From a virus, in the IMG/VR virus record IMGVR_UViG_3300045286_000101, positions 1-38,633 of that record: a stretch of DNA of 38,633 nucleotides. One strand, written 5' to 3'. Positions within the stretch are counted from its first letter, which is position 1, and each line of letters opens with the position of its first letter. Below the pieces are notes generated by a model. It ran no database searches. It was not told the origin of the DNA and saw only the letters and a list, made by a program, of their open reading frames with translations. A program made the translations under genes and the position numbers. Shown piece after piece: positions 7,093 through 32,953 of the stretch.

Positions 7093-7150
7093 CACGCTCC
7101 GACGCGCTACCTTCGGGGACAAATCGAGGATCGGCCGACCTGGCCCCACG

Positions 7151-7595: not shown

Positions 7596-7605
7596 AGCTG
7601 CTCCG

Positions 7606-13236: not shown

Positions 13237-13246
13237 CCGCAGCGGA

Positions 13247-13276: not shown

Positions 13277-13306
13277 CTTCCGCGTCGACGACGAGGAGGT
13301 GTGGCC

Positions 13307-13921
13307 TTGGATCCGCTCGCGACCGCCGACGACGTGCAGGCCCGCCTCGGTCGTGCCCTCACCGACACCGAGCTCTTCCGGATCGACGCCCTCATCGGCG
13401 ACGCGTCGGAAGCCGTCAGGGACAAGTCGGGCCAGCAGTTCACCCCGGGAACGTCGACGACGACGTTCCGGCCAGCAAAGGGCCGGATCCGTCTTCCGCA
13501 GCGTCCCGTCACCGCGGTCGCGTCGGTCACCGACATCTACGGCAACGACCTCGCCGCGGTCCGTGTCGGCGACACCGAGTACGTGCAGCTGAACCTGTCG
13601 CCGCTCAACGCGTGGGAAATCGAACCGTACCGGTGCGGCCTCACCGAAGTGGTCGTCACCTACGACCACGGCGATACGGAGGTCCCGGAGAAGATCGTCG
13701 GTGTCGTCTGCTCGATCGTGTGTCGTGCACTCGGCATGGACCCTGCGAATCCGGGTGGCACCGCCACCCAGGAATCGATCGACGGGTACGCGGTCACCAC
13801 CGGTGGTGGCGTCGCGACGTCGAGCGTGGTCGCGCAAGGCGCGCTCGGGATGCTCCCATCCGAGATCGAGATCTGCGAGAAGTTCAAGCGGCCGTCGTCC
13901 CCGATCGTCACGTTCGCGTGA
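13307..13921 (+). CDS. Head-tail connector (adaptor) protein
   Basis: The 204-residue protein is assigned TTG 13307 as start because GAGGAGG (13293-13299) lies 7 bases upstream; GTG 13301 would sit almost on the ribosome site. The N-terminus (LATADDVQARLGRALTDTE) and ASEAVRDKSGQ match the helical connector family (HK97 gp6 / SPP1 gp15 type), followed by a beta region with RIRLPQRPVTAV. It binds the portal ring after packaging. Confidence 0.82.
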   Translation: MDPLATADDVQARLGRALTDTELFRIDALIGDASEAVRDKSGQQFTPGTSTTTFRPAKGRIRLPQRPVTAVASVTDIYGNDLAAVRVGDTEYVQLNLSPLNAWEIEPYRCGLTEVVVTYDHGDTEVPEKIVGVVCSIVCRALGMDPANPGGTATQESIDGYAVTTGGGVATSSVVAQGALGMLPSEIEICEKFKRPSSPIVTFA

Positions 13922-14256
13922 GCATCGAGCGGTTCTTCACCCGGCAAGCGACCGTGACCCATCCTGCGGTCGTGTCCGGGTACGGTGACGCCACTCGCCT
14001 CGACTACACAGTGCCGCCGGCGACGACCGAGACGGTCATGGGCTGGCTCGCCCGCTACTCGGTCAGCCAGGTCACGACCGACACGCGCGACACGCCAGTC
14101 GGCAACTACATCTTCCGCTGCCCGGCCGACTCGAACATCGGCGCGACTGACCGGCTCACCGTCGACGGGCAGGACTTCAAGATCCAGGGCGAGCCGTGGA
14201 AAGCGCCCACACCCGGCGGCGCGCATCACCTCGTGGTCTCCCTCGACTTCCCGTGA
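13918..14256 (+). CDS. Head-closure / head-tail connector protein
   Basis: The 112-residue protein starts at GTG 13918 (GTGA overlap). It is beta-rich, with a late GNYIFRCPADSNIGATDRLTVDGQDFKIQGEP layout seen in head stopper proteins of siphoviruses. It follows the adaptor as expected. The next connector gene is displaced by the glycosyltransferase block. Confidence 0.75.
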   Translation: MSIERFFTRQATVTHPAVVSGYGDATRLDYTVPPATTETVMGWLARYSVSQVTTDTRDTPVGNYIFRCPADSNIGATDRLTVDGQDFKIQGEPWKAPTPGGAHHLVVSLDFP

Positions 14257-15167
14257 ACGTCCTCGCTGTGCTGCCCCAGTACATGCCGTGGTCGCGCGTC
14301 GGCTCGTGGATCACGACCCACGACTATCTCGCCGGCCTCGCGCACCGCGGACACCACGTCGACGCCACAACGCTCCGACCGACCGACCCGTACGAGATCG
14401 ATGGCGTGCATGTCAACGGGCAGATCGAGCAGCCGGATGTCGGGATCTGCCATCTCGGTTCGCCGCCGTCGGTCGGGCACAACCTCTCGCGCCTCGGCGT
14501 CCCGGTGGTGCGGATGGCGCACGGGCACAGTCCCGACAACGCCGCGCATCTGGATGCCACACCGACAGCACTGGCGATCTTCGCGAGTCAGGCGCTCGCC
14601 GATGACACCGCTTGGGACGGGCCGCAGATGGTCGCTCATCCGCCGGTGTTCCCGGACCGGTACCGGGTGAAGCCCGGCCGGAAGATCACGCTGTCGAACT
14701 TGTCGCAGGACAAGGGCGGCGCGCTGCTCGGCTGGATCACCGAAGCGCACCCGGAGCTCGAGTTCCTCGGCGTGCTCGGCTGGGGGTACCAGTACGAGCA
14801 GCAGGGGCCGAACGTCGAGGTGATCGCCCCTGTCGAGGACATGCGCACCGTCTACCGGCAGACGCGGGTCCTGTTGATGCCGTCCGATCGGGAGTCGTAC
14901 GGGCGGTGCGCGGTCGAAGCCGCGTGTTCGGGGATCCCGACGATCGCGCATCCGTCGCCGGGGCTGATGGAGGCGATGGGCGACCATGCGATCTGGGTCG
15001 ACCGTGCGGACCGGCAGGGCTGGATCGACAAGGTCGGCGAGTTGCAGGACCCGGCCGTATGGCGGGAAGCGTCCATCAACGCGCGTGGTGCAGTGCAGTC
15101 GGACCCTGACGCGACGGTCGACAACGTGTGCGAAGCGATCGAGGAACTGTGTCGCAGCAGCGTGTAA
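14253..15167 (+). CDS. GT-B glycosyltransferase (GT4-like)
   Basis: The 304-residue protein starts at GTG 14253 (GTGA overlap). It has two Rossmann-like halves: MPWSRVGSWITTHDYLAGLA at residues 11-30 and, in the donor domain, ITLSNLSQDKGG (145-156) then MPSDRESYGRCAVEAACSGIPTI (209-231) with the E-x7-E pair E214/E222 typical of GT4 enzymes. It would transfer a sugar from a nucleotide donor in the cytoplasm. It is the first of three glycosyltransferases inserted between head-tail connector genes, so virion proteins or a host glycan are likely acceptors. Confidence 0.87.
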   Translation: MNVLAVLPQYMPWSRVGSWITTHDYLAGLAHRGHHVDATTLRPTDPYEIDGVHVNGQIEQPDVGICHLGSPPSVGHNLSRLGVPVVRMAHGHSPDNAAHLDATPTALAIFASQALADDTAWDGPQMVAHPPVFPDRYRVKPGRKITLSNLSQDKGGALLGWITEAHPELEFLGVLGWGYQYEQQGPNVEVIAPVEDMRTVYRQTRVLLMPSDRESYGRCAVEAACSGIPTIAHPSPGLMEAMGDHAIWVDRADRQGWIDKVGELQDPAVWREASINARGAVQSDPDATVDNVCEAIEELCRSSV

Positions 15168-15853
15168 CGGTCCTGATCCCGCGGCGTGAGGACGGAGCCC
15201 GCCGCGACGAAATCTGGTCCTACGTGAAGAGCCGATGGGCCGGCTGGGATCTCCACGAAGGCCACCACACCGACGGGCCGTTCAACCGGTCGGCTGCCAT
15301 CAACCAGGCGTCCCGATCCGCAGGCGATTGGGACGTGGCAGTCATCGCCGACTCGGACAGCTTCGTCGGAGAAGACCAACTCCAAGTCGCGATCGACGGC
15401 TGCTGGTCCGACGGCCGCATGTGGCTCGCCTACACCGAGTACGGCTACCTCGACTGGCCGATGTCCGACCGGATCATGGCCGGCTACACGGGCGACTGGC
15501 TGCCGGGTGTCGAGTTCACGATGACGAACACCTGCAGCTCGATGGTCGTCGTCCGCCGCGACGTGTGGAACCAGTGCCGCGGCTTCGACGAAGGCTTCCG
15601 CGGGTGGGGATTCGAGGACATCGCGTTCTCGCATTCGGCGCAGACCTTCGGTGGAGGGCTCTCGCGTGCGCCGGGCCGCTGCTGGCACTTGAAGCACCTG
15701 CCGAGCATCGAACGCTCACCTCAGCAAGACACGGTCAACCGGCTCCGCGCTGAGCGGTACCACGCCGTCGCGTACGACAAGCCGGCGATGCGCGCACTGA
15801 TCGATGAACTGAGGGCCGATGATCCCAGCGCGGTTGGTCAGGACGGTCCCTGA
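15149..15853 (+). CDS. GT-A glycosyltransferase with GWGFED motif
   Basis: The 234-residue protein starts at GTG 15149, overlapping the GT4 gene by 19 bases. The DSD motif at 68-70 (AVIADSDSF) is the metal/nucleotide-sugar site of GT-A enzymes. GFDEGFRGWGFEDIAF (145-160) matches the GWGxED acceptor-site motif of the GT7 C-terminal / polypeptide GalNAc-transferase-like family. The motif suggests transfer of Gal, GalNAc or a similar sugar; the actual substrate is unknown. Confidence 0.85.
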   Translation: MSQQRVTVLIPRREDGARRDEIWSYVKSRWAGWDLHEGHHTDGPFNRSAAINQASRSAGDWDVAVIADSDSFVGEDQLQVAIDGCWSDGRMWLAYTEYGYLDWPMSDRIMAGYTGDWLPGVEFTMTNTCSSMVVVRRDVWNQCRGFDEGFRGWGFEDIAFSHSAQTFGGGLSRAPGRCWHLKHLPSIERSPQQDTVNRLRAERYHAVAYDKPAMRALIDELRADDPSAVGQDGP

Positions 15854-16430
15854 ACAGACCCCGCTCCAGGTCGAGCAGTGGTGGGCCCACGCTCGATCGC
15901 TCCACCCCGACTGGGATTGCGTCACCCTCCGCGACCCGCTCGACCCTGCGGAGTTCCCGTTCACCGGCGACTACTGGCGGCATTGCCACAACGGTGCGCA
16001 ACTCGCCGGGCTGATCCGCCTCGAAACGATCTACCGGCACGGCGGTCTGTACATCGATTCGGACGTGGAGCTGTTCCGGCCGCTCGACCCGCTCCGCTCC
16101 CTCGACTGTTTCGCTGCTTGGGAAGACGAGAACGTCGTCCCTGACGCCGTATTCGGCGCAACACCGCAACACCCGGCGATCCTCGAATGTCTCGACCTCG
16201 CGCTCTGCCGGCTCATGTCGACCGTCACGGACTGGCGGACCGGGAACGGCGCGTGGTCGACCGGCCCGGGCGTGTTCACCACGGTCCTCCCCCAAGCCGA
16301 CGGGGTGACCCTGTTCGGTCCGGAGGCGTTCTACGTGCCGCACTACACGCAGAAGGACCGGCTCGGTGATCCGCCGCACCCGGACGCGTACGGCCGGCAC
16401 CACTGGCACGGATCCTGGTTGGAGGCCTGA
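15819..16430 (+). CDS. GT32-like glycosyltransferase (DXD sugar-binding region)
   Basis: The 203-residue protein starts at ATG 15819, overlapping its neighbour by 35 bases. The RLETIYRHGGLYIDSDVELF segment with DSD at 80-82 is the Gly_transf_sug (PF04488) core of GT32 / capsular polysaccharide-type transferases. MIPARLVRTVP at the start matches the usual first strand (IPxxIxxxW-like). It ends in a TGATG overlap with the next connector gene, so the block is translationally integrated into the structural operon. Confidence 0.86.
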   Translation: MIPARLVRTVPEQTPLQVEQWWAHARSLHPDWDCVTLRDPLDPAEFPFTGDYWRHCHNGAQLAGLIRLETIYRHGGLYIDSDVELFRPLDPLRSLDCFAAWEDENVVPDAVFGATPQHPAILECLDLALCRLMSTVTDWRTGNGAWSTGPGVFTTVLPQADGVTLFGPEAFYVPHYTQKDRLGDPPHPDAYGRHHWHGSWLEA

Positions 16431-17986: not shown

Positions 17987-18351
17987 ACGAACACGGTGAG
18001 GCTGTTGAAGCCGACCTCGCGCAGTACTACCCGGGAACGAGGTTGTCTGACCTGGGAACATCGCGGCTCACCTGGCGGCGTCTGCGGGTATTGATTCGGC
18101 AACTGCCGGCAGGTTCGCGGACGATGCGCGCATTGAACCCGTACCAGGAATGGTCGACGGAAGCGCATCTGCTCGCGCTCGCGGTCGACGCATTGCGGGG
18201 AGCGAACTGGCAGCGGAGCACCGACCCGCGTTCGCCGAGACCGCCCCCGAAACCGATCGCGCGTCCAGGTGTCCAAGCACCAAAGCCAGCGGGCCTGCCT
18301 CTCAACGAACTACGTCGCGTGCTGCATCCAGAGTCCGAAGGGGGTGAGTGA
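17684..18351 (+). CDS. Tail assembly chaperone, -1 frameshift fusion (gpG-T-like)
   Basis: The long product joins 17684-17962 to 17962-18351 by a programmed -1 shift, 222 residues in total. The downstream frame continues GIRSLIEFLNEHGEAVEADL and TSRLTWRRLRVLIRQLP, the usual second half of actinophage chaperones, and has no good independent start. The lambda G/GT arrangement is conserved in siphoviruses, where the long form links the tape measure to tube subunits. It ends in TGATG overlap with the tape measure gene. Confidence 0.82.
17944..17962 (+). promoter_or_regulatory. Candidate -1 frameshift slippery sites
   Basis: Two in-phase copies of G GGG GAA lie at 17944-17950 and 17956-17962, 12 bases apart, in a zero frame that reads Thr-Gly-Glu-Asp-Leu-Gly-Glu. 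A slip at either keeps Gly-tRNA on GGG. The shift must occur before the zero-frame stop at 17984. Confidence 0.7.
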
Positions 18352-20375
18352 TGGCCGTCGAGTTGGGGACCGGTTACGTCACCATCACCGCCTCCGCGAA
18401 GGGCATCAAGCAGTCGATCGTCTCCGAGCTCCAAGGCGTAGAGACGGCCGCGTCGACAGCCGGCGCGAAGTCCGGTACGAGCTTCGCGGCGAAGTTCTCG
18501 TCGCTGCTCGGCGGACGAGTACAGAGCGCCGTCGGCGGCCAGGCGCAGGAAGTGGCCGGGATCTTCCAGAAGCTCAACGGTGAGAGCACGAAGCTCGCAT
18601 CGTCGCAGAGTCAGGCGGGCACAGCGTCACTCGGTCTCGCGACCGGACTGAAGGTCGCTGCCGGCGCCGCGGCGGTCTTCACCGCGGGGAAGCTCGTCAA
18701 GTTCCTCGGCGACTCGGTCCACTCGTACACGGACCTCGCTTCTCAGGTCCGCTCCTACCAGCGCGTCACGGGTGCGTCCGCCGAAGAGTCCTCGAAAATG
18801 GTCTTCGCGTTGAACACCTTGGGGATCTCGGCCGACAAGGGCGGGACGAGCATGTTCCGTCTCGCCCAGCGGATCGGTCAGGGGAAGGTCAATCTCTCGA
18901 AGTACGGCGTCGAGGTGAAGAAGACCGCCGACGGCAACGTCGACCTCGAAGGCACGCTGCTCAGCATCTCCGACGCGTACAACGCGACGCACGACCCTGC
19001 ACAGCGCGCCGCGCTGCTCATGGATTCGTTCGGTCGGTCCGGGAAAGACCTGATCCCCGTCCTGGCGCGCGGACGTGAAGGCATCAAGGAGCTGTTCGAC
19101 GAGGCCGGCCGCACCAACCACATCCTCGACCAGGGTGACCTCGACCGAGCGAAGCAATTCCAGCTCGCCACCCACGAGCTGTCGCAGACGTTTGAGGGCC
19201 TGCAGGTCAAGGCTGGGAACGCGCTCACTCCGTTCCTGACCGACATCACCGAAGTCATCACCGATGTGGTGCAGCTCGCCGACAAGCTCGGCGTCTTCGA
19301 TGCCATCGGTACGACCCTGCAGGCCGGGTTCAGCCCTGTTGTGTCGACGATCGAAGCCATCAAGAAGGTGTCGGACACGATCGGCCTCACCCAGGCGAAC
19401 ACCGACTCGAAGCTCGGTCAGGCTCAGAAGTACCTCGCCGACCAGCAGTCGAAGTACGCCGACCTCGTGAATGAAGGGAACGGGAAGTCGGCGGAAGCTC
19501 TCAGGCTGCGCAAAGAGATCATCGCGGTCACGAAGTACCTCGGACCGGCCGAGAAGGAGCTGGCGGACATCTCGGTGACTGCAGCGGACCGGAAGGCCGC
19601 CGCCGAGGAACGTCACAAGCAGGCGGTCGAACGTGAGACGCAAGCGATCGAGAACCGGAACAACGCGACGATCGCGTCGTTCTCGTCGGCGATCCAGGCG
19701 ATCCAGTCGACGAATCAGCTCGCATCCGAGGTCGGGCACCTCAACGACGGGACCGCGCAGTCGGTCGACTCGTTGACGTTGCAGCAGGACGCGCTGAACA
19801 CCGCCGGCGCGAAGGCGCAGGCCGCGACCGACAACTTCGAGGCCCTGAACGGTCGTCAGGCGACCGCGCAGGAGAAGGCCGGGTTCTTCCGGCAGGCGCT
19901 CATCGATCTCGGGAACCAGTTCCCGCAACTGATCCCACTCATCTTGGGCTACATCCAGAAGCTCGACGCGATCCCACCCGAAAAGACGACGAGCATCACC
20001 GCCGACACGGCAACCGCGGAGACATCACTGAAGCGCATCATCGACCTCAAGACCCAGGTCGGTTCGCCGGTCACTGTCCCCGTACGCGGCGGGAACTCGA
20101 TCTTCCGTGCCGCTGGTGGGCCCGTCTCCGCAGGAAGCCCCTACATCGTCGGCGAAGAGGGCTGGGAGGTGTTCGTGCCGGACACGAGCGGCACGATCAT
20201 CCCCCACGGTGCCGCATCGACCGGCGCGCCCATCGCCGCTGGCGGCACTGTCGGCACGATCCAGGTCGCGGTGCAGCTCGACGGTCAGACCATCGCCCGT
20301 TCCGTCCACAAGGTCGACGGCCGCAACGGTGTCGTCGGCGCCGGCGCGTCGCGCTCGAAAGCGTTCGGAGGGTAG
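18351..20375 (+). CDS. Tape measure protein
   Basis: The 674-residue protein starts at ATG 18351 after GGGGGTGAG. It opens with the common ELGTGYVTITASAKGIKQSI, has a hydrophobic segment at about 97-120 (ATGLKVAAGAAAVFTAGKLV), long helical/coiled-coil stretches (AADRKAAAEERHKQAVERE), and ends with the tape measure C-terminal signature AAGGPVSAGSPYIVGEEGWE. At about 0.15 nm per residue the tail would be near 100 nm. No peptidase or muramidase domain is evident. Confidence 0.92.
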   Translation: MAVELGTGYVTITASAKGIKQSIVSELQGVETAASTAGAKSGTSFAAKFSSLLGGRVQSAVGGQAQEVAGIFQKLNGESTKLASSQSQAGTASLGLATGLKVAAGAAAVFTAGKLVKFLGDSVHSYTDLASQVRSYQRVTGASAEESSKMVFALNTLGISADKGGTSMFRLAQRIGQGKVNLSKYGVEVKKTADGNVDLEGTLLSISDAYNATHDPAQRAALLMDSFGRSGKDLIPVLARGREGIKELFDEAGRTNHILDQGDLDRAKQFQLATHELSQTFEGLQVKAGNALTPFLTDITEVITDVVQLADKLGVFDAIGTTLQAGFSPVVSTIEAIKKVSDTIGLTQANTDSKLGQAQKYLADQQSKYADLVNEGNGKSAEALRLRKEIIAVTKYLGPAEKELADISVTAADRKAAAEERHKQAVERETQAIENRNNATIASFSSAIQAIQSTNQLASEVGHLNDGTAQSVDSLTLQQDALNTAGAKAQAATDNFEALNGRQATAQEKAGFFRQALIDLGNQFPQLIPLILGYIQKLDAIPPEKTTSITADTATAETSLKRIIDLKTQVGSPVTVPVRGGNSIFRAAGGPVSAGSPYIVGEEGWEVFVPDTSGTIIPHGAASTGAPIAAGGTVGTIQVAVQLDGQTIARSVHKVDGRNGVVGAGASRSKAFGG

Positions 20376-21545
20376 ATGCCGATCACCACGGTCACCCCGA
20401 CGATCCCGACCAGCGAACCCACCGACATCCCCGTCACCGAAGCCGGCTACCACACCGGCTCGTCGGGCGCGAACCCGGGCGGGTTGAACGCCGACGGGGC
20501 ACGCAAACTCCCCGCACGCTTCGCTGCCGAGATCCGTGCCCTGTCCCGCCAGGTCGGCTACACGGGCGACACGGCCGGCGCGTCGACCCACGAGGGCCGC
20601 ATCAAGGCCAACGAGGCGCTCGTCACCCGCTCGTATCCGATGACGGTCCTGCCCGGCCTGCGCGACCTGGCGATCACCGACGCGCAACTCACCTCCGGAT
20701 GGGCCGACCACCACTACACGACAGCGATCTCGTCCGGGAAGCTCCGCATCACCGCGACCGCCCCCGGCTCGGATCAGATGCGCCGCGTCTACGGCCTCAC
20801 CGACAGTGGGATCAGCGGCGCGAGCGAGGTCAAGTCGACGTTCGCCGGCGCGGACGACAGCGCGTGGGCAACGACCGCGAACTATCAGGTCGGTCACGCG
20901 CATCGGATCACCGCCGCGAAGCAGACCCTCGCCCCCGCACAGACCGCGGCGAGCGCGACGTCGACGACGATCGTCGGGACCGGGTTCACGAACCAGCAGT
21001 TCCTCTCGAAGCTCTCCGGGTACCGCGAGTGCTACGTGCAGACCGTCGCCGGGACCGGCGCCGGCCAGAAGCGCCGCATCATCAACAACACGACGACGAC
21101 GATCACCGTCGACACCGCATGGTCGGTCACCCCGGACAACACGACCGTGTTCGAGGTGTACACGTTCCACACCCGCGCGGTGGTCATCTCCGGGTCGGTC
21201 CTCGTCGGGTTCTTCGGCCACGAGTACTTCCAGATGCTCACCTTCGACGGCGGCTGCTGGAACATCCAGAACCGCACGTCGCTCGCCCCCTACGTGTACA
21301 GCTCCGGGACGACGTTCAAGGCGCTCCCCTGGTCGATGAAGACCCGCGTGGTAGGCAACACCGTCGACCTCGCGATCTGGATCGGTGCCGACCCCGAACC
21401 CGCCTACGGGGCATCCGGGAAGTCGGCATCGTGGACGATCCCCGACGGTGAGTTCTGCGAACCCGGCATGTCAGGCCTCTACGTCGCGCACCTCCCCGAC
21501 GGCGGGTACGTCGAGCTCGACAACGCGATCACCACGCGCCTGTGA
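20376..21545 (+). CDS. Minor tail protein
   Basis: The 389-residue protein starts at ATG 20376 directly after the tape measure stop. It has a Thr/Pro-rich N-terminus, a helical GARKLPARFAAEIRALSRQ segment, and a beta-rich body that could be a concanavalin-type or jelly-roll domain (SGKLRITATAPGSDQMRR, YVELDNAITTRL). Its position is where distal tail proteins occur, but the sequence does not clearly match Dit. It may bind carbohydrate. Confidence 0.7.
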   Translation: MPITTVTPTIPTSEPTDIPVTEAGYHTGSSGANPGGLNADGARKLPARFAAEIRALSRQVGYTGDTAGASTHEGRIKANEALVTRSYPMTVLPGLRDLAITDAQLTSGWADHHYTTAISSGKLRITATAPGSDQMRRVYGLTDSGISGASEVKSTFAGADDSAWATTANYQVGHAHRITAAKQTLAPAQTAASATSTTIVGTGFTNQQFLSKLSGYRECYVQTVAGTGAGQKRRIINNTTTTITVDTAWSVTPDNTTVFEVYTFHTRAVVISGSVLVGFFGHEYFQMLTFDGGCWNIQNRTSLAPYVYSSGTTFKALPWSMKTRVVGNTVDLAIWIGADPEPAYGASGKSASWTIPDGEFCEPGMSGLYVAHLPDGGYVELDNAITTRL

Positions 21546-24325
21546 GCACCATCGGCTGGGACTCCACCGAAGGGTGGGACTCGACCTCCGGATGGGACGC
21601 GGGCGGCGCGGCTGTTGCCGGCAAGCACGCCGCGCACATGGGGATCAGCTTCAACTACGGCGGCCCGAACAGTCAGACACTCCTCGATCTCCTCGCCGAG
21701 ATCGGCTGCGGGTACGCCCGGTGGGGCATCGAGATCACCGACTTCATGTCGACACCGAACTCGACCTCGAGCTACGGGACCCTCAACCTCTCGGCACTCG
21801 CCGCGACAATCGCCGCCGTCCACAATCTGACGACCGCCGAAGGCAAACCGATGGCGGTGCACCTCTCCGTCAACGGCGTCCCCCGCAAAGTCAACCCGAA
21901 CTCGGGAAGCGCGGACCCGGCAACGAACGGCGGACAGGACCACTGGTTCGCGACCGACAACGCCGGCCGGCTCATCGTCTGCGACTACACGGTCCAAGTA
22001 GCGAATCTGCTCGACCCGAGCCTCGGCGACATCCTCCAACTCGGCAACAACGAGTGCAACAACGGCTCGTTCAACCACGACGGCTCCACGAACCCCGGCC
22101 CGGGTGTCGTCGGCGTCGGCCCCGACGTCGTCGCCCACCAAGTCGCCGACGTATGCATCGCAGTCCGCACCGACGGCCCCTCAGGGCTGCTGGTGATGGG
22201 GCCGGCGATCATGAACTACGGCGACATCCACGCGTCGACCGGCGCGCAGACGATCCTCAACGCGGCGGCGTGGGCCGGCGCGATGGTCAACGCCGACAAG
22301 CGGCTCCGCAACCAAACCCAAGCCGGATTCTCCGGCACCGACGCCCGTTTCGACGGTTGGGACCACCACAACTACACGGGGAAGACCCCGCCGCTCTCCG
22401 GTGTGAGCATCAGCTCGAACACGACCGCTCTCACCTCCGGGTTCGGATGGGCATCCCCCCAGCTGCTAGCGATGCGTGCCGCGCTCGCGTTCAACGGGGT
22501 CACCGCCCCCGACGGGTCCCCCGTCAAGATGGGTGTCAGCGAGTACGGGACGTCACGGTCGGGGACGATCACCGACAGCTCCGGGACGTTCACGTTCACC
22601 GACAGCATCCAGAACGCGTACCTCGCCCAGTACTTCATGCTCTACGAGGCGGCCCGGAACGAGGGGTGGCTGACGTTCCCGACGTGTTGGCACACGATGA
22701 TCGGCGCCGACAACGACAAGAACCTCTTCCACGCCGCCGCGCCACACGATCCGTTCCCGTCCGGGCAGACCTACATCGACTTCGCGCACGCCGACGAGGG
22801 TGTCGTCACCCCGCCCGGCAATCCGCCCGTCGCGCATTTCGTCGCGAACCCGGCCTGGTTCTCCTACACGGGGACCACCGTCTCCTGGCAGGACACCTCT
22901 GCGAACGGGCCGACGAGCTGGGTGTGGGACTTCGGTGACGGCACGACCAGCAACGTGGCGAACCCGACGCATTCGTGGGCGCATGCCGGTAGCTACACGG
23001 TCACCCTGACCGTCACGAACGCGTACGGGACCGACACCATCTCGATCCTCTGGAACGTCGTCGATCAGGTCATCACCCCGACACCGACCGACCCGTACGC
23101 CCCCGACGTCAAGGTCGAGCTCGGGATCGCGTCGTCGATGCTCACCGACACGGACACCTGGGCGGTCGGCAACAACCCGCGCGGCAAGCTCGACGGACCG
23201 TGGAAGATCGCCGCCGCGTACCACTGGTTCGATGTCTCCGGCGACCTCGACGCCGGCGGCACGACCTACCAAGTGCAGCGGGGCCGCACGAACCCGCTCG
23301 AGCGGATCTCCGTCGGGACCTGCTCGGTCACGGTCCGCAACGACAACCCAGGGAGCGCGGGGAACTACGACTCGCAGAACTGGCTGTCGCCGTACTTCCC
23401 GAACCTGCGTGCCGGGATGGCACGCCTGCGGTTGTCGATCGACGGGCAGCCGGTGTTCACCGGGATCATCTCGGACCAGCCGAACGTCGACTCCGTCGGG
23501 AACCTCGTCACTACCACGTTCTCGTGCGTGGATTTCCTCGCGTTGTTGAACGTGCCGATGAAGTACAAGCCGGAAGCGGTCCACACCGCGCAGAAACGCC
23601 TCTACCGGATCGGCGAGAAAGCCGGCGTGTTCCCACGAGTCCCGTCGTACATGATCGCCGGGGTCAACACGTACGCGAAGGGCCTGCTGTTCGACGACAC
23701 GGCCCTCTCGTTGATGATGGACGTCGCGTTCGCTGAAGGCGGGATGCTCTACGCGGCGACCGGCAGCATCAACTTCATCAACCGGGACCACATGGCCGGC
23801 GCGCCACCGTTGTTCACGTTGACGGATCAGCCGCCGAACGACAACAACCGCATCCAGTATGCGGGGATCGTCCGCAACGACGGGGTCGACACCGCCTACG
23901 ACCAGTTCAGCTTCAAGACCCCCGACGGGATCGAGACGGTCGCTTCGCAACACGCGAACACACCACGGGCGTTCCCAGAGTTCACGTCACCGATCGGTGG
24001 GACGAGCCAGGCGGACACGAAGTACCGGAACCAGGTCCGGGTGAACCAACTCCTCGGCGACTTCGGTGCGCCCGCGTTCCGGTTCGAGAAGGTCCAGGTC
24101 GAAGCCCACCGGTACTCGCCGGAGCAGCGACGCGCGTTCATCACCGGTCAGGAGATCGGTCACGTCTGCCGTGTCGAACGGACCCCGCCGGGGACGGTCT
24201 TCTACGACTTCGCGGGTGGGACGTTGGCACGGAATCAGGTCATCGAGGGGATCTCGATCGATGGCAGTCCCGGCATCTGCAACATGGAGTACACGATGAG
24301 CGCACAGTTGGAGCCGGTCGGATGA
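21542..24325 (+). CDS. Tail tip protein: glycoside hydrolase - PKD - baseplate hub fusion
   Basis: The 927-residue protein starts at GTG 21542 (GTGA overlap). Residues about 1-20 repeat GWDST. Residues 28-420 look like a clan A TIM-barrel glycosidase: HMGISFNYGG start, acid/base candidate E171 in LQLGNNECNN and nucleophile candidate E334 in MGVSEYGTS. Residues about 426-506 form a PKD domain (SWVWDFGDGTTSNVANPTHS, YTVTLTV). From about 520 the protein resembles siphovirus tail-tip proteins (WKIAAAYHWFDVSGDL, RGRTNPLERISVGTCSVTV). It probably degrades a host glycan during adsorption. Confidence 0.82.
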   Translation: MSTIGWDSTEGWDSTSGWDAGGAAVAGKHAAHMGISFNYGGPNSQTLLDLLAEIGCGYARWGIEITDFMSTPNSTSSYGTLNLSALAATIAAVHNLTTAEGKPMAVHLSVNGVPRKVNPNSGSADPATNGGQDHWFATDNAGRLIVCDYTVQVANLLDPSLGDILQLGNNECNNGSFNHDGSTNPGPGVVGVGPDVVAHQVADVCIAVRTDGPSGLLVMGPAIMNYGDIHASTGAQTILNAAAWAGAMVNADKRLRNQTQAGFSGTDARFDGWDHHNYTGKTPPLSGVSISSNTTALTSGFGWASPQLLAMRAALAFNGVTAPDGSPVKMGVSEYGTSRSGTITDSSGTFTFTDSIQNAYLAQYFMLYEAARNEGWLTFPTCWHTMIGADNDKNLFHAAAPHDPFPSGQTYIDFAHADEGVVTPPGNPPVAHFVANPAWFSYTGTTVSWQDTSANGPTSWVWDFGDGTTSNVANPTHSWAHAGSYTVTLTVTNAYGTDTISILWNVVDQVITPTPTDPYAPDVKVELGIASSMLTDTDTWAVGNNPRGKLDGPWKIAAAYHWFDVSGDLDAGGTTYQVQRGRTNPLERISVGTCSVTVRNDNPGSAGNYDSQNWLSPYFPNLRAGMARLRLSIDGQPVFTGIISDQPNVDSVGNLVTTTFSCVDFLALLNVPMKYKPEAVHTAQKRLYRIGEKAGVFPRVPSYMIAGVNTYAKGLLFDDTALSLMMDVAFAEGGMLYAATGSINFINRDHMAGAPPLFTLTDQPPNDNNRIQYAGIVRNDGVDTAYDQFSFKTPDGIETVASQHANTPRAFPEFTSPIGGTSQADTKYRNQVRVNQLLGDFGAPAFRFEKVQVEAHRYSPEQRRAFITGQEIGHVCRVERTPPGTVFYDFAGGTLARNQVIEGISIDGSPGICNMEYTMSAQLEPVG

Positions 24326-24942
24326 CGGGCGGCCCGATCACGGTCGCGACGGGTGCGACGCCATCGTCGGACGACTGGAACGAGATCGCACGGCAGACGG
24401 TGATCCCGGTCGACAACGCCGGGATGCTCGGGTGGGGCAGCGTGCCGACGGGAGCGTTCGTGTTCAACACGGACCAGCAGGCCTACTACTCGTACAACGG
24501 GTCGGACTGGATCATGATCGGTGGTCGGCGCATCGGCTGCCGCCTCACCCGCAACGCGCTCCAGTCGCTTCCTGACTCATCGGAGATCGCGGTGCAGTGG
24601 GACACCGCCGCGCAGGACACCGACGCGTTCATCACCTCGACGCCGCCGACGGTCGCGAACATCGATACGGTCACGATCCCGTCCGGCTTCGACGGCCTCT
24701 ACATGGCCGTCGCCTACGTGTACTTCTCGACGGGGATCGGATCGGTCCCCGGCTACGTGAAGATTTTGCAGAACGGCACCGGCGGGTTCGAGTCGTCCGC
24801 CGCTGCTGGCGGTGTGCGCGGCACCGTCTCCGCGCAATGCAACCTCTCCGGCGGCGACCACATCAAGGTCGTCGCCTGGCAAGCATCCGGCGCGGGCATC
24901 GACATGACCGCCCGCCTGCAGCTGTTCCGGATGGGCCCGTGA
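24322..24942 (+). CDS. Minor tail / fibre protein with C1q-like C-terminus
   Basis: The 206-residue protein starts at ATG 24322 (ATGA overlap). Residues about 45-70 have FVFNTDQQAYYSYNGSDWIM, a short trimerisation-like motif of fibres. The C-terminal 130 residues alternate strands (DTVTIPSGFDGLYMAVAYVY; DMTARLQLFRMGP) in the manner of C1q/TNF-like jelly rolls found on fibre tips. It may form a trimer. Confidence 0.68.
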   Translation: MTGGPITVATGATPSSDDWNEIARQTVIPVDNAGMLGWGSVPTGAFVFNTDQQAYYSYNGSDWIMIGGRRIGCRLTRNALQSLPDSSEIAVQWDTAAQDTDAFITSTPPTVANIDTVTIPSGFDGLYMAVAYVYFSTGIGSVPGYVKILQNGTGGFESSAAAGGVRGTVSAQCNLSGGDHIKVVAWQASGAGIDMTARLQLFRMGP

Positions 24943-25781
24943 GCGCACCGTTCCCGCTCGGCTCGAGCGTGAGCTACTGGCTGTGGGGTGTCTCCGGCCA
25001 GTTCGGCTTGCATCGCATTCCGGGCCCTGAGGTCGGCTGCGTGTGTGTGATGGGCCGCAACGGGAACCCCGCGGACGGGTACGGGCCGAACGGACATACC
25101 GGGATCTGTGTGTCGACCGGACCGGGGACGGTGACGTGCATCGAGTCGCGGGGCGGTGTCGGCGTCTGCTACAAGACCCGCCGCCGCGAGGAGTGGGACG
25201 GGTTCTGCCGCGTCGACGGGATGACCCCGCATGTGGTCGGCGGGATGCATGTGTGGGAGTCGATGTACGACGCGTTTACCGGGACCGTCGCGCACGTCGG
25301 CTACTACTCGGGGCCGGATGTCGTGAACGATGGGCATCCGGACCGGGCGTGGATCGGCGACGGGAACGGCATCGACTGTTCCGGTGCCGTCAAGTTGTGC
25401 GCCGACTACGGATACGACCACGCGGCCGGGCAGCCGGCACCGCAACCACCGCCACCCCCGCCTCCACCATTGTGGGCCGGTCTCGACGATGAGGAAGACA
25501 TGAGCCGAGTAGCTACGTTCCCGTTCAACAACCAGGCGCATTCCGTGTGGGTCGACGAACCGTCGAAACATCTGTTCCACAGCTTCGTCGACAGTGGCGG
25601 CAAGCACGGCTTCGAGGACTTGAGCACGGTGACGGGGATCGGTGCGCTCACCCTCGACCGTCCCACTGTGAGTGCTGCGGGGTCGTGTCTCGTGGTCGGT
25701 GTGTTCGGAGCCGCCGACAATGTGTACGTCGAGCTCCGGTACGACGGGAAGGGTTGGGGAGCCGCGGTCCCCGGCCACTGA
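24939..25781 (+). CDS. Putative endolysin with permuted cysteine-peptidase-like domain
   Basis: The 280-residue protein starts at GTG 24939 (GTGA overlap). NGHTGICVS (H53) and the following TVTCIESRGGVGV / WDGFCRV resemble the strands and His of NlpC/P60 or CHAP peptidases. A DCSGAVKLC motif, normally the N-terminal catalytic Cys, occurs later at C147, which would imply a circularly permuted fold. A polyproline linker (about 168-177) leads to a 90-residue C-terminal domain, possibly cell-wall binding. Two small membrane proteins follow, as in a lysis cassette. It could instead be a tail-associated protein. Confidence 0.45.
   Translation: MSAPFPLGSSVSYWLWGVSGQFGLHRIPGPEVGCVCVMGRNGNPADGYGPNGHTGICVSTGPGTVTCIESRGGVGVCYKTRRREEWDGFCRVDGMTPHVVGGMHVWESMYDAFTGTVAHVGYYSGPDVVNDGHPDRAWIGDGNGIDCSGAVKLCADYGYDHAAGQPAPQPPPPPPPPLWAGLDDEEDMSRVATFPFNNQAHSVWVDEPSKHLFHSFVDSGGKHGFEDLSTVTGIGALTLDRPTVSAAGSCLVVGVFGAADNVYVELRYDGKGWGAAVPGH
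25500..25781 (+). CDS. Possible internal-start product: C-terminal domain alone
   Basis: ATG 25500 in the same frame has GAGGA four bases upstream, immediately after the polyproline linker, and would give a 93-residue free C-terminal domain (MSRVATFPFNNQAHSVW...). Several endolysins make such binding-domain fragments. No expression evidence is available. Confidence 0.35.
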   Translation: MSRVATFPFNNQAHSVWVDEPSKHLFHSFVDSGGKHGFEDLSTVTGIGALTLDRPTVSAAGSCLVVGVFGAADNVYVELRYDGKGWGAAVPGH

Positions 25782-26299: not shown

Positions 26300-29188
26300 A
26301 TGTCGCTCGACGCGCTCGACGGCCGCGCCCGTCGATTCCCCATCCTGCTGCCACTCGGCTACCCGAAGACCCTCGAATGGGAACTCTTCGACGACGCCGA
26401 GCTCACGCAGCCGACCGACCTGTCCGGCACGTCCGACTGGCTGCTGCGCGTCACGCGTGCCAGCCAGTCGGACCTGCCGATCACCGGCACGGTCTCGGGG
26501 AACATCGTCACAACGCCGCTACCGGACACGCTCAACGGCCGGTACCACCACACGCTCGAGACCGTCATCGGCAGCAAACGCGTCCCGTTGCTGACGGGAC
26601 CGCTGCAGTTCTCGAACGACGGGTCACCGTCGGGCATCCCAGCGTCAGACACGATCCGTGTCCAGCTCCACGTCGCCGACCGTGTCACCGTCGTCGGCAT
26701 CCTGGCCGGTAACGGCGGCGGCGGGTCGGGTGTCGCATGGATGGTGGACCCGCGTGAGTACGGCGCCGCTGTCGATGGGACTACTGACGACACAGCGGCA
26801 CTCAATGCGGCGATCGTCGCCGCAGGAGCGGCAGGAACCGTTCTGGTCCCGCCCGGCAATATGGCGATCGGCTCGCAGATCACCCCGGTCGACGCGACGA
26901 CACCCCTGCGGCTCGTCGGCCTCGGCGCTGCCCGCTCCAAGATCACTGTCCTCACGGGAACGACCGGCCCGATCTTCGACCTCGCGTTCACCGGCAACCA
27001 ACCGAACGTCGAGCTCGCCGACTTCGAGATCGACGGCATGGCCGTCCGCACCCAGGACCTCGTCTACCTCGACGGTGTGAACAAGCCGCGCATCAACCGG
27101 GTGAAACTCCGCGGCGGGCGTCGTCAGGTGTGGCTCGGGATGGTCACACAGGCCGAGCTCGACGTGTGGTGCATGAACCCGACGGAGACGGGACTGTATG
27201 TCCTGCCACCGAACCCGATTTCGCTCGCGAATCCGGCAGGGCAGCAGCCGAACTTCGCTGTTCGTGGCTTCCACTACGAGGCGACGACCGCGAACGACAC
27301 CATCGACGTGCCGGCCGCGATCCACGTCGCGTGTTACACGACCGCGATCACGATGCAGAACGTCGAGATCACGCAACGGTTCGCGACCGGGGCAGGGACA
27401 CTGCAACGTGGGATATGGTTCGATGTCCCGGAACCGGGCGCGAACACGTACTGCGCGCTAGCGACCGCGCTCACCGACACGACCGGCACCACCGTCGTCG
27501 TCAAAGCCGGGACCGATCCGGCAGTCCTCGATTTCCTCGCTCCCGGGGCGACGATCGTTATCGATTCGACGACCGGGAACCGTGAAGCGATCACCCTCGG
27601 TGCTTCGTCGGACGGGTTGACCTGGACGGGCTGTACCCGCAACGCGGACACGCTCGGCGCGCACACTCACGCGGTCGACGCGACGATCCAACTCCCGATC
27701 GGTGGTCGGGGCACGTTCGCCTTCTTGCGGGGTCTGCTCCTCGACGGTGTGAACGGGCCGGCGATCGCAGCGAGCAACGCCCGCGAGCTCCAGATCGGCG
27801 GCCAGTCGTTCATTTCGACGCATGCGGGCGGCGGGTTCCCGGCGGTGCTGATCGAAGGGTACGGCCGGGACGTGCAGATCGGCGGCGAGTCGTGGCTCGC
27901 CGGGACCGGCATCGAGTTCGCGTCCGGGTCCGTCACGAACGTCGTGTCGATCGACGACGTGTTCCTCCCGCAGACCAGTCCCGGCGGGGCGCTCGTCTTC
28001 CCCGCTGACGCGACGGTCACGAACCTCCTCGTCGGCGACAACGTGACGACGACGTGGGGACTCGCCGAAGACATCAACGGTGTCGACGAAACGAAAATGG
28101 CCCGGATCATCGGCGCGATCGACCACGACAAGCCGAACCTCCCGCGCACGCTACGCGTGACGGACTTGTCGCTTGACGACGCGATCCACTGGAAGAACCC
28201 GGTCGCTGACAAGTCCCGGTTCTTCACGTTGACGGCGTCGGGGACGTTGCAGGAACGGAATAACGCCGGTTCGGTGATCTTCTCCCGGCAGGATTCGGGG
28301 ACAGAGATCCTGGTCGGTGGTACAGCGATTCGTGCGGTCGGGACGAACACGCCTGAGGGGCATGTGACCGCGGGCGTCGGTTCACTGTTCCTCCGCACCG
28401 ACGGTGGCACATCGTCGGTGCTGTATGTCAAGGAATCGGGGAGCGGGAATACCGGATGGGTCGCGCACGGAGGGTCGGGCGCGACGAACCTCGGCTACAC
28501 GCCATCGACCCGGGTCCTCACCTCGGACACCGGCGCGGACGTGACGCTCCCGCTCGTCGACGGGTCGAACCCGGGCCTGATGGCCTCCGCCGACTACACG
28601 CGACTGAGCAACACATCCGGGACGAATACCGGCGACCAAGACCTCTCCGGGCTGGCGACATCTTCGGCGCTCGCGTCGGAAGCGTCGGCGCGCGCCACCG
28701 CTGACGGGCTCCTCGTCCCGAAGACCACCACGGTCAATGGTCATGCCCTCACCGGTAACGTGACCGTCACCGCGGCGGATGTCGGCGCGGACGTGGCGGG
28801 CGCTGCCGCAGCCGCGCAAGCCGCGTCGCAGCCCGTCGACTCGGACCTGACCGCGATCGCCGCGCTCGCGACAACCAGTTACGGGCGCGCGTTGTTGACC
28901 CTCGCCGGCCTGTCGAATCTGCTGGCGACGGTCGGCCCGACTGGTACCCCGTCGTCGTCGACGTATCTGCGGGGCGATGGAGCATGGGTCGCAGTCTCCG
29001 GCGGTGGCGGCGGCGACATGCTCGCCGCGAACAACCTGTCGGACCTGACGAACGTGGCGACCGCACGGACGAATCTCGGTCTCGGCAATGTGAACAACAC
29101 AGCAGACGTGAACAAGCCGGTGAGCACCGCGCAGCAGGCCGCGATCGACGGCGCCTCGTACAACACTCTGTTCATGGTGGGAGTCTGA
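26300..29188 (+). CDS. Tail spike with pectate-lyase-like beta-helix
   Basis: The 962-residue protein starts at ATG 26300. Residues 1-130 resemble baseplate-attachment (BppU-like) domains. From about 150, VDPREYGAAVDGTTDDTAA is the entry motif of the pectate_lyase_3 right-handed beta-helix, continuing to about residue 560. The rest is fibre-like: low-complexity repeats, SGLATSSALASEASARATADG and an end with NNLSDLTNVATARTNLGLGN, typical of tail fibres. It probably binds or cleaves a surface polysaccharide. Confidence 0.85.
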   Translation: MSLDALDGRARRFPILLPLGYPKTLEWELFDDAELTQPTDLSGTSDWLLRVTRASQSDLPITGTVSGNIVTTPLPDTLNGRYHHTLETVIGSKRVPLLTGPLQFSNDGSPSGIPASDTIRVQLHVADRVTVVGILAGNGGGGSGVAWMVDPREYGAAVDGTTDDTAALNAAIVAAGAAGTVLVPPGNMAIGSQITPVDATTPLRLVGLGAARSKITVLTGTTGPIFDLAFTGNQPNVELADFEIDGMAVRTQDLVYLDGVNKPRINRVKLRGGRRQVWLGMVTQAELDVWCMNPTETGLYVLPPNPISLANPAGQQPNFAVRGFHYEATTANDTIDVPAAIHVACYTTAITMQNVEITQRFATGAGTLQRGIWFDVPEPGANTYCALATALTDTTGTTVVVKAGTDPAVLDFLAPGATIVIDSTTGNREAITLGASSDGLTWTGCTRNADTLGAHTHAVDATIQLPIGGRGTFAFLRGLLLDGVNGPAIAASNARELQIGGQSFISTHAGGGFPAVLIEGYGRDVQIGGESWLAGTGIEFASGSVTNVVSIDDVFLPQTSPGGALVFPADATVTNLLVGDNVTTTWGLAEDINGVDETKMARIIGAIDHDKPNLPRTLRVTDLSLDDAIHWKNPVADKSRFFTLTASGTLQERNNAGSVIFSRQDSGTEILVGGTAIRAVGTNTPEGHVTAGVGSLFLRTDGGTSSVLYVKESGSGNTGWVAHGGSGATNLGYTPSTRVLTSDTGADVTLPLVDGSNPGLMASADYTRLSNTSGTNTGDQDLSGLATSSALASEASARATADGLLVPKTTTVNGHALTGNVTVTAADVGADVAGAAAAAQAASQPVDSDLTAIAALATTSYGRALLTLAGLSNLLATVGPTGTPSSSTYLRGDGAWVAVSGGGGGDMLAANNLSDLTNVATARTNLGLGNVNNTADVNKPVSTAQQAAIDGASYNTLFMVGV

Positions 29189-29517
29189 TGGCACAGGTCC
29201 GCAAGAACCTCGGCGGTGGTCTCCTCCCGGCCGCGGCGACTGACACGACCTTGTACACGGTGCCGGCTGCGACGGATACGGTCGTCGCTGACCTGATCGT
29301 CTGCAACCAGGGTGCAGCCACGACGTTCCGGGTCGCATGGCGAGTCGCCGGCGCTGCACTCGCGACCAAGCAATACCTGTTCTATGACTGTCCGATCGAC
29401 GCGAATGACACGCTCGCGCTCGGTCTGGGGATCACGATGGCCGCGACGGATGTCCTCACGGTCCGGTCCGCGTCCGGGTCGGTGTCGTTCAACGCGAGCG
29501 GGGCGGAGAACTCGTGA
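29188..29517 (+). CDS. Small beta-sandwich virion protein
   Basis: The 109-residue protein starts at ATG 29188 (TGATG). The sequence LYTVPAATDTVVADLIVCNQ and ANDTLALGLGITMAATDVL are typical of a small phage beta-sandwich family found next to tail fibre genes, probably a fibre accessory or decoration protein. No catalytic residues are seen. Confidence 0.72.
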   Translation: MAQVRKNLGGGLLPAAATDTTLYTVPAATDTVVADLIVCNQGAATTFRVAWRVAGAALATKQYLFYDCPIDANDTLALGLGITMAATDVLTVRSASGSVSFNASGAENS

Positions 29518-30800
29518 CCATCTCCGCGACCCGTCACCGGCCGACAACCACACCGACTCTCAAGGCCCCACTCACGGGGTTGATCGACCGGACCGGTGGC
29601 ACCCACTTCGGGACCTCCGACGTCTACTCGGCCGGCGAACTCCGCTACAACAACGCCGCGGCGAAGTTCACGTCTGGCGAACAGGTCCGCGACTACATGC
29701 GCGGCGTCACCATCCAGCTCGACTGGGCCGACCTCGAACAGTCCAAGCCGAACCAGTGGGACTTCACCAACCTCTCGACCGCGATCACGACGGCGGAGAC
29801 GGCCGGGCAACACGAGTTCGGCCTACGGATCTTCGCCGGTTGGCATATGCCCGCGTGGATCGTTACGGGTGACCTCGCGTTGGCGCACTGGTACAACGAC
29901 ACGACCGCCGTCGCGAATCTGCATTGGGGTACAGGCGTCGCGAGTGGCGATACGAACTGGGTGAATGGTGCGGGCGGATCGTTCGCGTCGCAGTCAGGCG
30001 CGACCGACTACGCGCCGGGCGGCGCCGCGAACGGCACGATCGGGGCACGGTCGGGTGCGATGCCGGTGTGGTGGGACCAGCGGATGGCCGACCATTACGA
30101 GCGGCTCATGTCGCGTGTCGCCCGCGAGGTCGAGTCCGACGACCGGATCAGGCATGTGCAGATCGGTATGCCGACAACGGTCTTCGCTGAGCCGATGATC
30201 CACCAGACGTACGCGCACGCGGGTGACGGGACGACACGCCCGAACCTGCTACGAGCGACGGCTGCCGGTTGGACACAAGAGGCCGAGCTCGAGCTGTGGC
30301 GTCGTGTGTTCCAGATCCATCATGCGTGCTTCACGAGGACGCGGACGGTGTTGTGTATCAATGTGGCGGAACGGTTCGTCGATGTGGGCGATGTCGCGTA
30401 CACGAATGCGCTCGACCCTGAGTACTCGGGCGAGTTGCAACGGCTCGCGAAGTCGATCATCGGCGATGCGTTGATCTTGCAGAACAACTCGCTGCTTTCA
30501 CCGCGGCGGACCGGTAGCAACTGTTGGTTGCATACGTCGACGCCCCGCTACACGGAGTTGTACACGCGGATGACGGATGGGAGCGTCCCACGGCTTGGGT
30601 TCCAGACCGATAACCGGGGGACGATCCTCGGCCAGTCCGGCGATAGTTCAACGGTCCGCGCGGCGGTGCAGGACGGCATCGACATGGGCGGCGCCTACGT
30701 CGAACTGCCGGTCGGGTACCACCAGGACTTCTCCCTCGCGCAGTTCCAGGCGATGGACGCCGCGTGTACTGCGAACGCGAATGCGAGGGTCGCGCCGTGA
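29514..30800 (+). CDS. TIM-barrel glycosidase-like tail protein
   Basis: The 428-residue protein starts at GTG 29514 (GTGA overlap). It resembles clan A glycosidases (beta-galactosidase-type barrels): VTIQLDWADLEQSKPNQWDF followed by GLRIFAGWHMPAWIV, then WDQRMADHYERLMSRVAREV and a strand-end Glu in MPTTVFAEPMI that could be the acid/base. The nucleophile position is not clear, so it may be a binding-only or divergent enzyme. It lies between fibre genes and lacks a signal peptide, so it is most likely a virion component. Confidence 0.68.
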   Translation: MTISATRHRPTTTPTLKAPLTGLIDRTGGTHFGTSDVYSAGELRYNNAAAKFTSGEQVRDYMRGVTIQLDWADLEQSKPNQWDFTNLSTAITTAETAGQHEFGLRIFAGWHMPAWIVTGDLALAHWYNDTTAVANLHWGTGVASGDTNWVNGAGGSFASQSGATDYAPGGAANGTIGARSGAMPVWWDQRMADHYERLMSRVAREVESDDRIRHVQIGMPTTVFAEPMIHQTYAHAGDGTTRPNLLRATAAGWTQEAELELWRRVFQIHHACFTRTRTVLCINVAERFVDVGDVAYTNALDPEYSGELQRLAKSIIGDALILQNNSLLSPRRTGSNCWLHTSTPRYTELYTRMTDGSVPRLGFQTDNRGTILGQSGDSSTVRAAVQDGIDMGGAYVELPVGYHQDFSLAQFQAMDAACTANANARVAP

Positions 30801-32953
30801 GTATCTCGTCGGCACGGAAAGTCGCGAACGCTGCGGACGTCCTCGTCGCCGACGGCGGGAGCAACTATGCGGGGACGGATGTGGAGGCGGTCCTCGCGGA
30901 GATCGCCGGCCTGATCGGTTCGGGGTCGATGACGACCGAGCAGGTGCAGGACATCCTCGGTGCTGCGCTAGTCGGCGGGACTGGTGTCACGGTCACGTAT
31001 GACGACACTGCGGGGACGGTGACGGTAGCGGTCGGGTCGACGGTGTACCGGTCGGGTGGGACGGATGTTCCGGTCGCGGATGGTGGGACGGGCGCGTCGG
31101 ACGCGGCGACGGCCCGGTCGAATCTCGGCGTTGCGGCCGTCTCACACACCCACCCGGAATCCGACATCACGAACCTGACAACCGACCTCGCAGGGAAGGC
31201 CGCCGCGTCGCACACGCATCCTGAGTCGGACATCACGAATCTGACGACGGATCTCGCCGCCAAAGCTCCACTCGCGTCGCCGACGTTCACCGGGACCGTC
31301 ACGGTCCCGACCCCGTCGAACTCAACCGACGCGGCGACGAAGGGCTATGTGGACACGTCGGTGGGGACTCCGACCGCGCTGCTCTCGCGTGTCCTCGCCG
31401 GGATGACGATCCCGCCGAACTCGTTGGACAGGTGGAAAGCCGGACCCGGCCTCCCCGGCACACCATTGAACGGGAGCATCACGAACTCGGCGACGTCGCT
31501 CGCGCCGACCGACTCGTCATTCTTCCCGAACACCGCTCATCGTGTCTTCACGATCGATAGCGAGGAGTTCTTCTCGACCGGCGGTGAGACGACCACCACC
31601 GTCAACGTCGACGGTGGGATCAACGGGACGGCGCGCTCGAGTCATGCGGACAAGGCCGAGATCATCCGGTCAAAGGTCCGCAGGGTGATGCATATCGGCG
31701 ATTCGGTCGCTGAGGGTGTGACGACGTCGACGACCGTTGCGGGGGACGGCTGGTCGGTGCGTGCCGCGCGTGTCGTCTCGAAACGTCTCGGCGGCGAGAT
31801 CGGCCAGATGTGGCCGATGTGGCGTTCCACCGCGATTTCCCAAGTTCATCAGGAGTATGTCCTCACCGGTGCCGCGTCGGCGGGAGTCGCCGCCTACGAC
31901 CTCGGCCCGTATGGCGGGGTTGTGTTCACCGGCGGGTCCGGGAACGGGTTCGTGTGGACCCGTCCCGCCGGGTTGACTGTCCAAGCGGTCGACATCCTCT
32001 GGGTGGACTACTCGTCGACGTCGTGGGACTGGCAGTACAGCCTCGACGGCGGCTCGACATGGGTCGGGAACCCGATCACGAGCTCGATCTACACGTCCGG
32101 GACCGCGAAGCTTCGCCGGTCGCGGATCGTGTGCGACAACCCGACGACGATCCGGGTCCGTGCGTACAACGGGTCGGCGAACAAGACGATTGTGCTCCCC
32201 TATGTGCCGTTGACGACGTGGTCGACACCACCGACGACGGGTGTGACCGAAGGGGTCATGTGGGCGAACCTCGGCGCGGCCGGCCAGAAGCTCCGCACCT
32301 TGTTGAACTCGAGGACAGTCACCGACGGAGTCACGAACGGGACAACGACGCTCACGTCCGCGACGGCCGCGTTCGTCGCGAACGATGTCGGGTCGACGAT
32401 CTACGTCAACGGCGCCGCGTACACGATCAGTTCCCGCACCAACGGGACGACGGTTGTGCTGTCCGGGTCGCCGGCCACCGCGACCGGTGTACGACTCACG
32501 ATCTTCCAAGGTGACAACACGGGCGACCGGATGGCCCAGTTCCTCGGCCATCACGGGTCCACCTTCCCGGACCTCGTCATCTGCGGCCCATGGGACAACG
32601 ACATGGGCACCTCACCGACATCGAACGGTGACACGAACCCCGACGCGATGACCGACATGCTCACCTACCTCGTCGGGAAGATCCAACCCGTCGCCGACGT
32701 GCTCCTGATCGCACCCCACGAAGACAACACGTTCTCGACGTCGCTTCAAGCGCAGTACCGGACCGCGATTCACGGGGTCGGCACCGCGCTCAACTGCGCG
32801 GTCCTCGACCTGTACGACGCGTTCGCCGCCTACGGGTACACCGGATACACCGCCGTCAACGCCGGAGGGTTCATGTACGACTCGGTGCATTTCTCGGCGC
32901 TCGGTAACCAGTGGATGGGTTCGCACCTCGCGCGTGTTCTCGGGGTGGTCTGA
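30797..32953 (+). CDS. Tail fibre with SGNH/GDSL-type esterase domain
   Basis: The 718-residue protein starts at GTG 30797 (GTGA overlap). The first 200 residues are fibre-like, with two copies of SHTHPESDITNLTTDLA and a TFTGTVTVPTPSNSTDAATK segment. The SGNH hydrolase starts with VMHIGDSVAEG (S303), has a CGPWDND segment and ends with DSVHFSALGNQW (D695, H698), giving the Ser-Asp-His triad. About 200 residues of beta-rich sequence are inserted between the first and third blocks. The enzyme probably removes acetyl groups from the host receptor glycan. Confidence 0.83.
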   Translation: MSISSARKVANAADVLVADGGSNYAGTDVEAVLAEIAGLIGSGSMTTEQVQDILGAALVGGTGVTVTYDDTAGTVTVAVGSTVYRSGGTDVPVADGGTGASDAATARSNLGVAAVSHTHPESDITNLTTDLAGKAAASHTHPESDITNLTTDLAAKAPLASPTFTGTVTVPTPSNSTDAATKGYVDTSVGTPTALLSRVLAGMTIPPNSLDRWKAGPGLPGTPLNGSITNSATSLAPTDSSFFPNTAHRVFTIDSEEFFSTGGETTTTVNVDGGINGTARSSHADKAEIIRSKVRRVMHIGDSVAEGVTTSTTVAGDGWSVRAARVVSKRLGGEIGQMWPMWRSTAISQVHQEYVLTGAASAGVAAYDLGPYGGVVFTGGSGNGFVWTRPAGLTVQAVDILWVDYSSTSWDWQYSLDGGSTWVGNPITSSIYTSGTAKLRRSRIVCDNPTTIRVRAYNGSANKTIVLPYVPLTTWSTPPTTGVTEGVMWANLGAAGQKLRTLLNSRTVTDGVTNGTTTLTSATAAFVANDVGSTIYVNGAAYTISSRTNGTTVVLSGSPATATGVRLTIFQGDNTGDRMAQFLGHHGSTFPDLVICGPWDNDMGTSPTSNGDTNPDAMTDMLTYLVGKIQPVADVLLIAPHEDNTFSTSLQAQYRTAIHGVGTALNCAVLDLYDAFAAYGYTGYTAVNAGGFMYDSVHFSALGNQWMGSHLARVLGVV
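31142..31267 (+). repeat. Synonymously diverged tandem repeat in the fibre gene
   Basis: Two 20-codon repeats (31142-31201 and 31208-31267, period 66 bp) encode 19 of 20 identical residues but differ at 13 codons by synonymous changes. The pattern looks like selection for protein sequence with loss of DNA identity. Confidence 0.8.

Follow-up and report, generated by a model that had tools for sequence, protein, structure and literature searches.

The window, which is the whole 38,633-nt stretch of viral DNA that was analysed, carries on its plus strand at positions 21542–24325 a fusion gene encoding 927 amino acids, in which a putative N-terminal glycosidase domain is followed by a PKD domain and a tail hub domain. 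The GTG start codon of this gene overlaps the stop codon of the gene upstream (GTGA). Its GC3 was approximately 0.90, like that of the neighbouring genes, and lay between 0.82 and 0.95 across nine full 300-nt blocks, with values of 0.90, 0.91, and 0.90 in the N-terminal, PKD, and C-terminal parts, respectively. This evenly high GC3 in one frame across the three parts indicates a single real gene and not a frame artefact, and the single polypeptide described in the first-pass annotation is borne out as a continuous ORF that is GC3-biased throughout.

The protein begins with a tail of 26 residues (21542–21619), read from the sequence, which contains a short GWDST repeat (GWDSTEGWDSTSGWDAGG); the tandem repeat opening the protein spans positions 21542–21600 (GWDSTEGWDSTSGWD). 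Residues 27–425 (21620–22816) constitute an orphan domain, for which we propose a clan A-like (beta/alpha)8 glycosidase fold, with E171 (22052–22054), which follows N170 where strand 4 ends, as the putative acid/base, and E334 (22541–22543), at the end of strand 7, as the putative nucleophile. The PKD domain occupies residues 445–499 (22874–23038), and residues 517–927 (23090–24322) were assigned from profile matches to a tail hub or tip domain of the phrog_5313 type. All of these features are encoded on the plus strand.

The neighbouring genes discussed here are also on the plus strand. The tape measure gene (18348–20375; phrog_2276, E = 1.4e-17) lies two genes upstream of the fusion gene, supporting the siphovirus tail gene order that had been suggested for this locus. 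The gene between them (20376–21545) encodes an accessory tail protein of 389 amino acids, with a possible relative (weak, E = 0.006) at positions 7113–8243 of L003, located before rather than after the tape measure region. We rejected this 389-aa protein as a paralogue of the N-terminal domain, although 'GW-HHYT' is common to both. The end of the fusion gene is overlapped by a gene for a 206-aa virion structural or tail protein (24322–24942; phrog_13989, E = 2.4e-8), after which a Cys-containing frame at approximately 24939–25781, with the sequence 'GIDCSGAVKLCADYGYDH', possibly encodes a cell-wall peptidase or lysin; the ORF enclosing this frame had no Pfam match. A 962-aa tail spike candidate (26300–29188) contains a pectate-lyase-like segment (PF12708, E = 3.6e-9) and a C-terminus weakly matching other virion proteins. 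The 428-aa protein encoded at 29514–30800 matched no family; its start (IQLDWADLEQSKPNQWDFTN...LRIFAGWHMPAW) suggests a second clan A-type barrel, and in hhalign it aligned near the beginning of the GH5 profile at a score of 20.2, which is not significant. The 729-aa fibre encoded at 30764–32953 contains phage tail repeats (PF12789) and, at its C-terminus, a weakly matching GDSL/SGNH hydrolase domain with GDS and DSVH motifs (PF13472, E = 9.4e-6), and is possibly a deacetylating tail fibre. Seven of the eight relatives of the capsid gene found in bacterial genomes were in Actinobacteria (the best, with 58%, in Herbihabitans), and the relatives of the portal gene were mostly from actinophages.

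The PKD and C-terminal domains

The PKD spacer with a WDFGDGT motif reported in the first-pass annotation was confirmed by Pfam as one PKD domain at residues 445–499. PF18911 scored 58.6 bits against a cut-off of 27 (E = 6.5e-16) and PF00801 scored 37.2 bits against a cut-off of 23.5 (E = 3e-9), so that both profiles exceeded their gathering scores, and the WDFGDGT core is located at residue 462, inside the domain. PKD domains in the PDB were also matched by this segment.

The C-terminal domain matched phrog_5313 at positions 23225–23452 (E = 7.2e-6) and 23585–23821 (E = 5.8e-5) in the order of the model, a weak match whose E-values are those for a single record and which is absent from the filtered hmmscan listing. 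For residues 517–927, there was no Pfam match and no significant match to PDB sequences, and an AlphaFold2 prediction of the domain from an alignment of three rows had a pLDDT of 30.6, too low to indicate a fold. In the related phage contig L086 (the contig of L008, found via its major capsid protein), the tape measure protein is homologous to that of the window (phmmer E = 1.7e-29), and the gene directly 3' of the tape measure gene encodes a phrog_5313 protein (6483–9464). Microcystis phage Mae-JY09 protein WWT39960.1 matches the C-terminal domain directly, and likewise matches phrog_5313. Because of the phrog_5313 match, the position of this family behind a homologous tape measure gene in L086, and the tape measure gene upstream in the window itself, from which the fusion gene is separated by one gene, the C-terminal domain is very probably a tail hub or tip module, in agreement with the tail-tip-like C-terminus noted earlier.

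The N-terminal domain

In GH5-type members of clan A, the conserved residues are an Arg on strand 2, a His on strand 3, Asn-Glu on strand 4, His-x-Tyr on strand 6, a Glu on strand 7, and a Trp on strand 8. The N-terminal domain contains R60, H107, N170-E171, H276-x-Y278, E334, and W383 in the same order, with E171 in the context QLGNNECNNG and E334 in the context KMGVSEYGTS; the Glu pair thus occurs exactly where the first-pass annotation had placed it. By eye, strands could be proposed at residues 31–38, 56–61, 102–109, 163–171, 214–224, 269–278, 328–336, and 377–386 (strands 1–8), such that the signature residues each close a strand-like hydrophobic segment, and helix-like segments alternate with these strands.

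Of 28 genuine GH5 domains, 22 contain a loose form of the ordered pattern, whereas only 2 of the 663 other ORFs with at least 300 amino acids do; shuffling the N-terminal domain 50,000 times produced it 351 times (0.7%). The enrichment in true GH5 domains over these controls, approximately 100- to 250-fold, is an upper estimate, because the residues and the spacings allowed between them were chosen post hoc, with the protein already seen. A strict residue regex was dropped as overfitted, since only 1 of the 28 true GH5 domains passed it. The clan GH-A residues are present in order, with the Glu pair assigned to strands 4 and 7, in a pattern defined after the fact.

Sequence searches gave no relative of residues 27–425 in phages, plasmids, viral contigs, genome contigs, or approximately 800 actinobacterial genomes (396, plus 397 from the order of the closest host). 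Peptide patterns and the DNA motif for GWD[HQDE]HxY were used for the phages, plasmids, and viral contigs; the 19 matches to the DNA motif were attributed to chance, as were the weak matches, which were short. When P0001 was compared with 396 genomes of a second order, the best matches examined covered the PKD domain only and belonged to secreted proteins with an unrelated N-terminus. Comparison of residues 27–425 with Pfam, PHROGs, NCBIfam, and PDB sequences was likewise negative. At E <= 10, nothing on the window was matched by the profiles of GH5 (PF00150), GH53 (PF07745), or GTA_TIM (PF13547), the last of which did match its Caulobacter control. The segment 'LQLGNNECNNG' resembles strand 4 of GH53, an identity that was rejected when PF07745 gave no match. 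In hhalign against an alignment of 28 actinobacterial GH5 domains, the scores were 19.0 for the N-terminal domain and 18.3 for the reversed sequence, with an alignment that was out of register. An AlphaFold2 prediction of residues 1–435 from the single sequence had a pLDDT of 31.8, too low to speak for or against a barrel.

The comparison with GH families that had been put forward as a check therefore gave neither a GH5 nor a GH53 profile match, and hhalign to GH5 stayed at control level. The clan A-like barrel claimed from the first reading accordingly has indirect support only, from the full ordered residue set with both Glu residues, and none from family profiles or from hhalign. We consider it likely from the residue signature that the domain adopts a clan A-like barrel, and rather probable, with somewhat less assurance, that it is an active enzyme.

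Proposed function and alternatives

We propose, with a probability of roughly 0.6, that the gene encodes the tail hub protein of an actinobacterial siphovirus, extended at its N-terminus, via a PKD domain, by a highly divergent glycosidase of the GH5/clan A type with a retaining mechanism. The gene, the two Glu residues, the PKD domain, the match to the hub family, and the tail context are directly supported. The fold, catalysis, substrate, and geometry described in the following are predictions. The hub would form the end of the tail tube, and the N-terminal barrel, in which E171 would serve as acid/base and E334 as nucleophile, would cleave a host surface or cell-wall glycan when the baseplate lands, cutting at or beside the landing point and thereby allowing the tail tube to reach the membrane. 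The PKD domain would keep the enzyme away from the hub. Solved siphophage hubs are trimers and, by analogy, three copies of the barrel would probably be arranged round the hub, pointing outward or downward. A glycan-cutting role agrees with the tail gene cluster, given the pectate-lyase-like spike and the GDSL-type fibre downstream and the GH5-like domain in a fibre of L086. This L086 fibre (12468–16397; 1309 amino acids) has a long run of near-identical 'GSAAVTLADFTSSASG' repeats around the GH5-like domain (PF00150, E = 5.7e-4). A bolder version, somewhat less likely than not, is that the domain represents an unrecognised clan A family, in the sense that it has no sequence relatives in the collections searched here, built into an actinophage tail hub as a barrel followed by a PKD domain and the hub itself, which would give every virion a small, fixed complement of sugar-cutting enzymes at the site of DNA exit.

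The alternatives concern mainly the N-terminal domain. One unlikely but reasonable reading is a glycan-binding module, barrel-like or otherwise, that serves receptor binding and whose catalysis was lost or never present: carbohydrate-binding domains are common in tail tip proteins, and the extra domains of Tal, Dit, and the megatron often bind carbohydrates but have no demonstrated catalysis (PMC9863714, PMC10276861), but the catalytic set is complete here, comprising both Glu residues and their usual companions, and all eight residues would be unexpected in a module for binding only. A similarly low probability attaches to a chance motif match in an unrelated fold that is not a glycosidase. 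The orphan sequence, the low AlphaFold2 confidence, and the silence of the GH5, GH53, and GTA_TIM profiles and of hhalign all suit this explanation, and a pattern with a frequency of 0.3–0.7% can turn up among many proteins; arguments against it are that true GH5 domains carry the ordered pattern far more often than the controls, that every signature residue is placed at a strand end, and that a PKD spacer, of a kind common in secreted enzymes, is present.

The substrate may also differ from the exopolysaccharide first suggested. An ectolysin acting on peptidoglycan or a wall-linked polymer is a less probable reading, to which we nevertheless give more weight than to the two preceding ones, as the cell wall is the usual target of tail tip lysins in Gram-positive siphophages (PMC9863714, PMC10194240) and the relatives of this phage infect thick-walled Actinobacteria. 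The residue pattern is, however, that of GH5 and not of the GH23, GH25, or GH73 lysozymes, and no lysozyme or peptidase family was matched. GH5-type enzymes are known to act mostly on beta-linked polysaccharides of plants, fungi, or bacteria. In the least probable of the alternatives, the C-terminal domain is not the hub but belongs to a minor tail protein at the periphery, and the enzyme sits on a side appendage. The tape measure gene is followed first by the 389-aa gene and only then by the fusion gene, and phrog_5313 is annotated as 'unknown function', both of which would fit such a placement, but the location of this family directly behind the tape measure gene in L086 speaks for the hub.

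Comparison with known systems

The proposed glycosidase–hub fusion resembles several known proteins in part. The N-terminal domain shares the ordered R-H-NE-HxY-E-W residues with GH5 (Cellulase, PF00150) of clan GH-A, and differs from it in having no HMM match, an hhalign score not above controls, and longer loops. The phrog_5313 proteins of L086 and Microcystis phage Mae-JY09 have the C-terminal domain match in common with the fusion protein, whereas their N-terminal modules are different or absent, with no barrel or PKD domain found. In Gram-positive siphophages, lysins fused to tail tip proteins are ordinary (PMC9863714, PMC10194240). As with Tal, the tail tip protein is encoded after the tape measure gene and its fused domain, enzymatic in Tal, is predicted to be enzymatic here. 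In Tal, the variable part comes after an N-terminal hub part; the order is reversed in the fusion protein, in which no peptidoglycan hydrolase family was found.

In the closest precedent, the megatron of RcGTA and roseophage R4C, the TIM domain lies within a large peripheral domain. An annotated TIM-barrel-like domain (GTA_TIM, PF13547) and a gp27-like hub are combined in one tail-end polypeptide, and the large extra domains ahead of the gp27-like central domain are called peripheral (PMC7296036, PMC10276861, PMC8601537). The fusion protein is similar in that a large extra domain precedes the hub-like domain. It differs in having no GTA_TIM profile match, in its actinobacterial rather than alphaproteobacterial host, and in its PKD spacer and complete catalytic-type residues; iris and fibre-binding domains were not recognised. 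Because the extra pre-hub domains of the megatron are called peripheral and the window has separate spike and fibre enzyme candidates, the earlier view that the enzyme sits on the very tip of the tail rather than on a side spike goes too far, and it is the fusion to a hub that the data support.

A tail tip that carries an enzyme is in itself nothing new, since fused tail lysins are ordinary and a TIM-barrel-like domain is known in the hub protein of the gene transfer agent megatron. The new part is most likely the combination, as read from the sequence, of an orphan clan A-like domain and a PKD domain ahead of an actinophage hub. If this is correct, the protein would add a glycosidase sequence that is missed by current family profiles and would provide a testable case, and possibly a depolymerase, for how phages of Actinobacteria cross surface glycans to the membrane. 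It would also mean that the design of an enzyme-like barrel in a hub protein reaches from the alphaproteobacterial gene transfer agents to the siphophages of Actinobacteria.
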